A stretch of 20,810 bases of DNA, from IMG/VR virus record IMGVR_UViG_3300030328_002318, positions 1 to 20,810 of that record, one strand, 5' to 3'. Made by a program: the position numbers and the translations under genes. This stretch comes from a virus. How positions within the stretch are numbered: the first letter of the stretch is position 1; every line of letters begins with the position of its first letter. The notes below the pieces were generated by a model. It did not search any database. It was not told where the DNA came from and saw only the letters and a list, made by a program, of their open reading frames with translations. Positions 986-1,574 of this stretch are shown here, one piece after another.

Positions 986-1015
986 TTGACAAGTATATTA
1001 TAAATAATATACAAT
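986..1015 (+). promoter_or_regulatory. Sigma70-like promoter facing the structured gap
   Basis: TTGACA at 986-991 and TACAAT at 1010-1015 are separated by 18 bp. The spacer also contains TATAAATA at 999-1006, a T4-late-like octamer. The sigma70-type start would be at about 1021-1022, exactly where an 11-bp hairpin begins. No protein gene follows for nearly 600 nt, which points to a noncoding RNA or a very long terminase leader. Confidence 0.6.
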
Positions 1016-1021
1016 AAAGCA

Positions 1022-1250
1022 ATTATGGGAAATCATTAATATCCTATTTTTCCATAATGGGGTCTAAAGAATGGACCGTCCATCACAATTTATTGTGACG
1101 ATTGCACAAATAAGGTTTTAGGGTGTTTTGAAAACAAACCAGCGAGACATACTTTCTGCAACGAGGTAGAGTAGCCAAGGACATAAACACGGCAGTGATA
1201 AACCATACTCTGGAAAAATTTGCATTCTGATAATACGACTATTTTTTCAA
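1022..1250 (+). ncRNA. Candidate structured noncoding RNA, 5' domain
   Basis: No convincing protein gene is visible in this stretch on either strand. Read from the promoter at 986-1015, the RNA would begin with an 11-bp stem (1022-1032 with 1048-1058, one G-U pair). Further possible pairings are 1061-1064 with 1074-1077; 1083-1088 with 1093-1098 (TCACAA-TTTA-TTGTGA); 1114-1117 with 1137-1140 enclosing 1124-1128 with 1132-1136; and 1168-1173 with 1206-1211 (AGAGTA/TACTCT). A six-T run at 1242-1247 might mark an end, but no strong terminator stem precedes it, so the RNA may continue into the hairpin array. It does not look like tRNA, tmRNA, RNase P RNA or 6S RNA. Large phage RNAs such as GOLLD and ROOL are the nearest idea by setting only; the boundaries are guesses. 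Confidence 0.45.
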
Positions 1251-1287
1251 ACTACTTCAAATAGAAAAGAAAAAAGCAAATAAGATA

Positions 1288-1574
1288 TTAATCAACGAAG
1301 TTGATTAATTGATTGATTGCAGAGCAATTGATCACAACACAATCATATATGAATCAATATTAAGAAGAAGAATTTGCCAATTGGTGTGAGTGCTCAATCA
1401 CTCTGCTTGTATCTCTCGTTGTCTGGTCAAGAGCTTCGCTCTCAACCAAAAAGGCATTCGCCTTTTCATATCTCTCTTGACTTCGTCACTCGCTTCGCTC
1501 TCTTTTGGCTTTGCCAATGCGAGAGGCCAAGAACGGTAGTGGGCGGAATAGCCCACAAGGCAAGGATCCGCTTG
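1288..1574 (+). repeat. Dense array of short hairpins upstream of the small terminase gene
   Basis: About eleven inverted repeats are packed into 287 nt. Arms are: 1288-1296/1300-1308 (9 bp, GAA loop); 1311-1320/1324-1333 (10 bp with two G-T, AGA loop); palindromes at 1343-1352 and 1377-1384; 1388-1392/1399-1403; 1425-1434/1438-1447 (8 of 10 paired, TTC loop); 1449-1455/1460-1466 (7 bp, ATTC loop); 1478-1481/1485-1488 (TTC loop); 1498-1502/1521-1525 enclosing 1505-1509/1513-1517; 1539-1544/1551-1556 (GTGGGC/GCCCAC); and 1561-1564/1571-1574. A competing long pairing joins GTCAAGAG at 1426-1433 to CTCTTGAC at 1474-1481. The stretch from about 1400 is visibly richer in G and C than its surroundings. 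A 69-aa TTG-started frame crosses it but looks like an artefact of the repeats. It could be RNA structure, a packaging site or a selfish palindromic repeat. Confidence 0.7.

Follow-up and report, generated by a model that had tools for sequence, protein, structure and literature searches.

Does the long gene-free stretch ahead of the packaging genes of an uncultivated aquatic phage encode a structured RNA, and if so, what might such an RNA do? The DNA examined here (hereafter the window), an IMG/VR virus record of 20.8 kb, carries three minus-strand genes that end by position 830, followed by terS (1609-2058), terL and the genes for portal, capsid and tail; both TerS and TerL are encoded. The nearest terL among annotated phages is only ~41% identical, and the phage is therefore assigned to an uncultivated group. 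A preliminary description of this locus proposed that the gap upstream of terS is noncoding and possibly holds a large structured RNA with at least five stems, starting at a hairpin that matches a promoter. ORFs of at least 40 amino acids are indeed absent from positions 831-1373, and the promoter is present where it was placed (Table 1). No tRNA genes were found in the window; the other loci discussed below were not part of this tRNA search.

Folding of positions 1022-1260 as a single sequence yields a z-score of -1.17, with 25 of 200 shuffled sequences folding equally well. This value is not significant, and thus the case for a structured RNA depends on comparison. One contig (L008) is a near copy of the window throughout, and a more distant one (L009, a contig that also appears as L034) can be aligned at ~71% across 1059-1509. 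The comparison of the window with L009 provided a signature, and IMG/VR was scanned with the patterns TAGCCAAGGACATAAAC, GGNNNTAAARNAYGNNCCGTCCRT, CAAGGACATAAAN{0,30}GATAAAC and AGGCN{6,7}GCCRAGGACATAWA. These scans yielded further loci with both signature halves and, together with one annotated phage, give 21 members in diverse gene contexts; all 19 stretches from the second scan look like genuine members. Matches to looser patterns (e.g., L050, L052-L058, L060, L081-L084 and L086) were discarded as chance or coding sequence. The annotated representative (L079) is carried by Phage DSL-LC06 (OR003941, 29.8 kb, circular) at ~740-1040, within an unannotated 755-bp gap (OR003941.1, 573-1327). A blast search of annotated phages with the RNA region of the window found no relative, and DSL-LC06 was reached only with another member as the starting point.

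A covariance model (R2) trained on 15 members over their 3′ core, with the window and L034 withheld, matches the window (Table 1) and all other members too, the weakest member scoring 35.1 bits and the best false match 32.4 bits. Scanning ~85,000 prokaryote genomes for the 5′ signature returned nine matches, all without the 3′ core and attributable to chance, and the family therefore looks phage-specific at the sensitivity of that signature. Searches with Rfam 15 (cmscan) produced no match at the RNA in the window, in relatives at 12 loci, or in two focused regions with the laxest filters. Weak matches to drz-agam-2-2, TtnuCD5 and mir-302 were set aside, as they lie elsewhere in the window, in coding regions, and are sub-threshold. 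Nor did we find the family described in the literature searched, most subscription papers being outside its scope.

The preliminary description had named a lack of covariation, or of conservation among relatives sharing terS, as grounds for abandoning the RNA. Covariation is strong across the counted helices, and the predicted fold, including a long-range pseudoknot, is strongly supported by the alignment. This alignment (A3) combines blocks from the 21 members, with the variable central domain removed and some 3′ partners placed by hand. The helices counted number five and comprise 27 pairs; 97.8% of their cells are paired, compared with 65.6% in shuffles, and double-sided changes occur in 177 cells, compared with 52±6 in shuffles and 17-32 in a sliding control. 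Double changes are found at 22 of the 27 pairs, and compensatory changes in each of the five helices. Kinship of the members inflates the shuffle statistics; the sliding control retains kinship, and there the signal collapses. The outer two G-C pairs of P2 were set by the search pattern and are invariant, but P4, P5 and the loop/3′-end pairing occur in none of the patterns.

Table 1. Predicted features of the locus, in window coordinates
Feature	Position	Strand	Basis or remark
Promoter, sigma70-type, TTGACA-18-TACAAT	986-1015	+	score 11/12
P1 leader hairpin, 11 pairs, 1022-1032/1048-1058	1022-1058	+	only in the window phage and L008
P2 hairpin, 1061-1064/1074-1077, loop 1065-1073 (UAAAGAAUG)	1061-1077	+	pairing in 100% of cells; covariation at two pairs
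Long-range pseudoknot, 5′ half, AGAAUG, in P2 loop	1068-1073	+	partner 1223-1228
Invariant GUCC	1078-1081	+	possible pairing with invariant GGAC, 1179-1182
P3 hairpin, UCACAA-UUUA-UUGUGA	1083-1098	+	covariation
P4 5′ strand: CG, bulged A, UUGCA	1099-1106	+	8/8 counted positions covary in the family
P4b, 1115-1119/1144-1148, compact remnant of variable central domain	1115-1148	+	compensatory versus L034
P4 3′ strand: UGCAA, CG	1157-1163	+	fixed-geometry pairing, covariation
3′ core matched by model R2	1162-1211	+	52.8 bits, E 1.3e-9
Short stem, 1165-1167/1174-1176, in AGGU-AGAGU-A-GCC	1164-1176	+	read from alignment table
P5, 1168-1172/1207-1211, AGAGU/ACUCU	1168-1211	+	5/5 pairs covary
Near-invariant strand AAGGACAUAAA	1177-1187	+	alignment
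P7 mini hairpin, CAC-GGCA-GUG	1188-1197	+	variable length; missing in some members
Near-invariant AUAAAC	1198-1203	+	alignment
Long-range pseudoknot, 3′ half, CAUUCU	1223-1228	+	partner is the P2 loop
Downstream hairpin H1, UUAAUCAAC-GAA-GUUGAUUAA	1288-1308	+	equivalent common to relatives with other bodies
Downstream hairpin H2, 11 pairs, conserved tandem U.G/G.U	1310-1334	+	compensatory versus L009 and L002-L011

P2 conforms to the consensus GGNN-UAAARNAYG-NNCC in most members. In 18 of 21 members, the last six bases of its loop are complementary to a 3′-end strand of the same RNA; in cross-member controls, such complementarity is seen in 2 of 308 cases. The variants of this pseudoknot include AGAACG/CGUUCU, AACACG/CGUGUU, AGGACG/CGUCCU and AGAGCG/CGCUCU, besides AGAAUG/CAUUCU in the window. 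P3 comes after the invariant GUCC, whose pairing with GGAC remains only possible, since both strands are invariant and covariation cannot be tested. P4 starts exactly 3 nt after P3 and ends exactly 2 nt before AGG, its linkers pairing (CG/CG, TG/CA, GC/GC, CC/GG) around a constant bulged A. A search for P4 with any offset was unclear, and the fixed-geometry version is decisive: at least five of six pairs form in 21/21 members, compared with 8.6% of cross-member combinations. Within P4, the P4b strands read GUUUU/GAGAC versus GUGUC/GACAC in L034, a comparison of two sequences only. In P5, the five bases preceding N-GCC pair with five that lie 3-5 nt past AUAAAC. The loop of the stem at 1165-1167/1174-1176 takes part in P5, creating a putative H-type pseudoknot, and this stem changes from GGC/GCC to GGG/CCC in L036, L042 and L063, as read from the table of the alignment.

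Of the stems proposed originally, those at 1061-1077, 1083-1098 and 1168-1211 are each backed by covariation. The stem drawn at 1114-1140 was wrong in detail, the pairing common with L034 being 1115-1119/1144-1148, and an enclosing helix (1099-1106/1157-1163) had gone unmentioned. Four of the five exist; one of these, the first hairpin (1022-1032/1048-1058), does have its 11 pairs but is missing or different in other members. The coincidence of transcription start and stem base, formerly offered as an argument for an RNA gene, is peculiar to the window and its near copy because P1 is not conserved, and is not the evidence that counts. The label "large" is apt only in part, as the RNA spans ~220 nt in the compact version of the window and up to ~310 nt elsewhere, with ~170-270 nt from P2 to the 3′ end of the core. 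The central proposal of a structured phage RNA gene nonetheless stands, supported by covariation, conservation and a promoter-like sequence of its own, with transcription being inferred.

Close relatives of the window phage reveal how this RNA is arranged within its locus. In blast comparisons of the upstream region with terL relatives, L002-L007 align well with the window up to the -10 box (~1006-1016) and again from ~1592, and hardly between. The DNA of the terS region is 82-87% identical in relatives with another RNA body, which retain the promoter and the double hairpin, and phages whose TerS is ~93% identical lack the RNA and have a different body in its place. Conservation is seen across phages but does not extend to every relative with a shared terS, since the site is occupied by other RNA bodies in close relatives. 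A TTGACA-18-TATAAT version of the promoter occurs in L002, L003 and L005-L007 despite the different transcribed body, and the promoter at the same slot in L004 is degenerate. H2 reads UGAUUGAUUGC-AGA-GCAAUUGAUCA in the window and UGAUUGACAAC-GAA-GUUGUUGAUCA in others, and marks the 3′ border of the putative exchangeable cassette, possibly as a terminator or processing site. The slot holds body A in the window, L008 and L009; B in L002, L003 and L005-L007; C in L004; and D in L010 and L011, with a third type D body in L093 known only up to the end of the record. Comparison of these loci establishes that predicted RNA bodies have been replaced between promoter and double hairpin at one locus. 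This exchange of whole bodies between two constant elements suggests that RNA cargo is swapped like protein cargo.

Bodies B, C and D were considered as distant homologues of the window RNA and rejected, R2 giving no match in L002-L007, L010 or L011. Type D has one compensatory stem identified by eye (GAACAC/GUGUUC versus GAAUAC/GUAUUC), and types B and C were outside the covariation testing. The other bodies lie at 3145-3566 in L002, 1570-1959 in L003, 1847-2236 in L005, 1643-2383 in L004 and 3215-3527 in L093, and those of L010 and L011 lie around a GGTAAGGGTAAAGAGCC motif.

Promoters scoring 11-12 of 12 precede the RNA in the window, L034, L045, L047 and L048, at a distance from P2 of 44 nt in the window and 53-82 nt in the other four. 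Among other members, the -10 box is separated from the first conserved hairpin by 44-112 nt, frequently with an AGGCA-repeat leader; GGCA repeats occur in the leader of most members other than the five just named. Two to four AGGCA/GGCA repeats begin near the predicted transcript start in type A RNAs (L028, L036, L037, L041, L044, L045, L047, L048, L051, L063 and L079) and in type D RNAs (L010 and L011). We did not recognize them as a Shine-Dalgarno or CsrA motif.

Additional hairpins are present nearby. On the minus strand of the window at 924-857, a hairpin of 13 pairs and a T-run (886-857) come immediately after a promoter-like site (924-895). This element is conserved in most close relatives and is possibly a tiny minus-strand RNA or else an attenuator ahead of the gene at 552-830. 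A possible second small RNA upstream of the main one (~1960-2030 in L009, ~1130-1230 in L010 and ~1720-1790 in L011) consists of a promoter-like site, a ~75-nt hairpin (GGGTGGAAGG...CCTTCCACCC in L010) and a T-run. A series of short hairpins (GAGCTTCGCTC, AAGGCATTCGCCTT and others) occupies 1380-1560 of the window before terS, some with compensatory changes versus L009.

The genes surrounding the RNA differ widely among members. It is located upstream of terS in the window and L034, is convergent with tail genes at seven loci (L028, L037, L039, L044, L045, L047 and L048), and lies downstream of co-directional tail genes in L036, L041, L051 and L063. No downstream gene is common to all members, and scanned neighbors such as glycosyltransferases, DNA methyltransferases and asparagine synthetase are cargo genes. 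The RNA is not tied to terS; that link is local to the phage group of the window, and elsewhere the RNA sits in a variable cargo region. No IscB/TnpB-type nuclease, the gene expected beside RNA-guided nuclease RNAs (HEARO/omegaRNA), is annotated in the complete DSL-LC06 genome or present among the scanned neighbors (not every locus was scanned), and Rfam gives no match at the RNA. As far as sequence evidence can establish them, the predicted fold with its two pseudoknots, its occurrence across diverse phages, the promoter-like sequence and the lack of a fixed neighbor are secure.

We lean toward the view that the locus is an independently transcribed noncoding RNA gene. Its product would be an accessory ("moron") RNA that acts in trans on a host component and can be exchanged between phages; both transcription and function are inferred. 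Rightward transcription would begin from the promoter at 986-1015, and the RNA would end between ~1229 and the double hairpin at 1288-1334; no U-tract terminator follows the core. The predicted fold is a compact, doubly pseudoknotted body: one pseudoknot ties the P2 loop to the 3′ end, and the second, of H-type, displays the near-invariant AAGGACAUAAA and AUAAAC. During infection the RNA may bind a host protein or ribonucleoprotein for takeover or counter-defence, although neither partner nor step has been shown, and phages would swap it, as a cassette, for RNAs unrelated to it. A discrete transcript, action in trans and a host target are each inferences, and the role in trans is drawn from context alone. 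On the broader proposal, that such RNAs are a new class of compact, doubly pseudoknotted, trans-acting phage RNAs and one of several unrelated RNAs competing for a single cargo slot, we are evenly divided. If true, the arrangement would mirror moron gene islands at the RNA level: promoter and 3′ double hairpin would be fixed sockets for an exchangeable RNA. The structured RNA families known to be specific to phages are few, and the majority have no function. With a fold defined by covariation, a simple search signature, and occurrence in many phages including a complete annotated genome, the family is directly testable.

Other roles can be envisioned. A cis-acting late-operon leader, for example a riboswitch or an RNA for processive antitermination of the HK022 put kind, would control terS-terL and the structural genes. 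This role is not excluded in the window and L034, because there the RNA is upstream of a co-directional terS-terL operon and would be transcribed first, ahead of terS and the late genes. We consider it unlikely for the family, as the next long genes are convergent at the seven loci listed above, members share no downstream gene, and other bodies precede an almost identical terS in close relatives. The varied contexts and cargo neighbors argue against a leader and for cargo RNA. It is somewhat less probable still that the RNA serves in packaging or capsid assembly like phi29 pRNA, or marks a pac/cos recognition element. Its position adjoining terS in the window and L034, its compact fold and its loop pairings would suit such a role, but most members are not beside terS, phages with a ~93% identical TerS do without it, and no Rfam match exists. 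Compensatory changes that include G-U pairs, and the preceding promoter, indicate that the unit is an RNA and not a DNA site.

We give slightly less credence to a structural RNA that assembles with itself as GOLLD and ROOL do, its loops also linking copies. Phage origin, an unknown partner and loop pairings are in keeping with this idea, and GOLLD and ROOL form RNA-only cages (PMC12286853). However, the RNA measures ~220-310 nt, compared with >800 nt for many GOLLD RNAs, lacks an Rfam match, and in almost all members carries the loop complement intramolecularly, although domain-swapped multimers are not excluded. A new ribozyme is the least plausible of these alternatives. The double pseudoknot and long near-invariant unpaired strands are what such a catalyst might present, but no known active-site motif was recognized, nor any Rfam ribozyme match at the locus. 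An accessory RNA acting in trans remains our preferred reading.

How does this RNA compare with known systems? In phi29-type phages, which have no TerS, the pRNA is linked to the packaging ATPase and is required for packaging. Like it, the RNA of the window adjoins packaging genes, but the absence of TerS that characterizes the phi29 system does not apply, since TerS and TerL are both present, most members lie away from terS, and there is no Rfam match. Antitermination RNAs of the HK022 put type are structured too, and stand at the 5′ end of a phage transcript. The present family is larger, pseudoknotted and not consistently ahead of an operon; a cis leader should always be co-directional and upstream, an expectation that the seven loci convergent with tail genes do not meet. 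The cabRNA of staphylococcal phages is also a structured phage RNA from the terminase region, but arises from within the coding sequence of terS-terL, and no sequence is common to the cabRNAs of different phages (PMC10686824), whereas the RNA described here is intergenic, with its own promoter and a conserved fold. IMES RNAs, among them the listed family IMES-2 (PMC6962438), come from marine metatranscriptomes and similarly have an aquatic, mostly uncultivated origin; they differ in that the window RNA has no Rfam match, although the presence of IMES-1 in our Rfam copy is unverified. GOLLD and ROOL, whose cage-forming families have models in Rfam, are likewise phage-encoded, elaborate, pseudoknotted noncoding RNAs of unknown function (PMC12286853), but are much larger and often near tRNA islands. 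The present RNA does not have their very large size, nor does it have a tRNA nearby in the window, and the GOLLD, ROOL and OLE models, which PMC12286853 implies are part of Rfam, do not match at the RNA in cmscan, in agreement with the initial judgment that it is neither GOLLD nor ROOL. The family is new in sequence and fold, and as a kind it is comparable to GOLLD and ROOL, being a structured RNA carried by phages whose job is unknown. What an independent RNA gene should possess, its own promoter and a conserved, covarying fold, is present.
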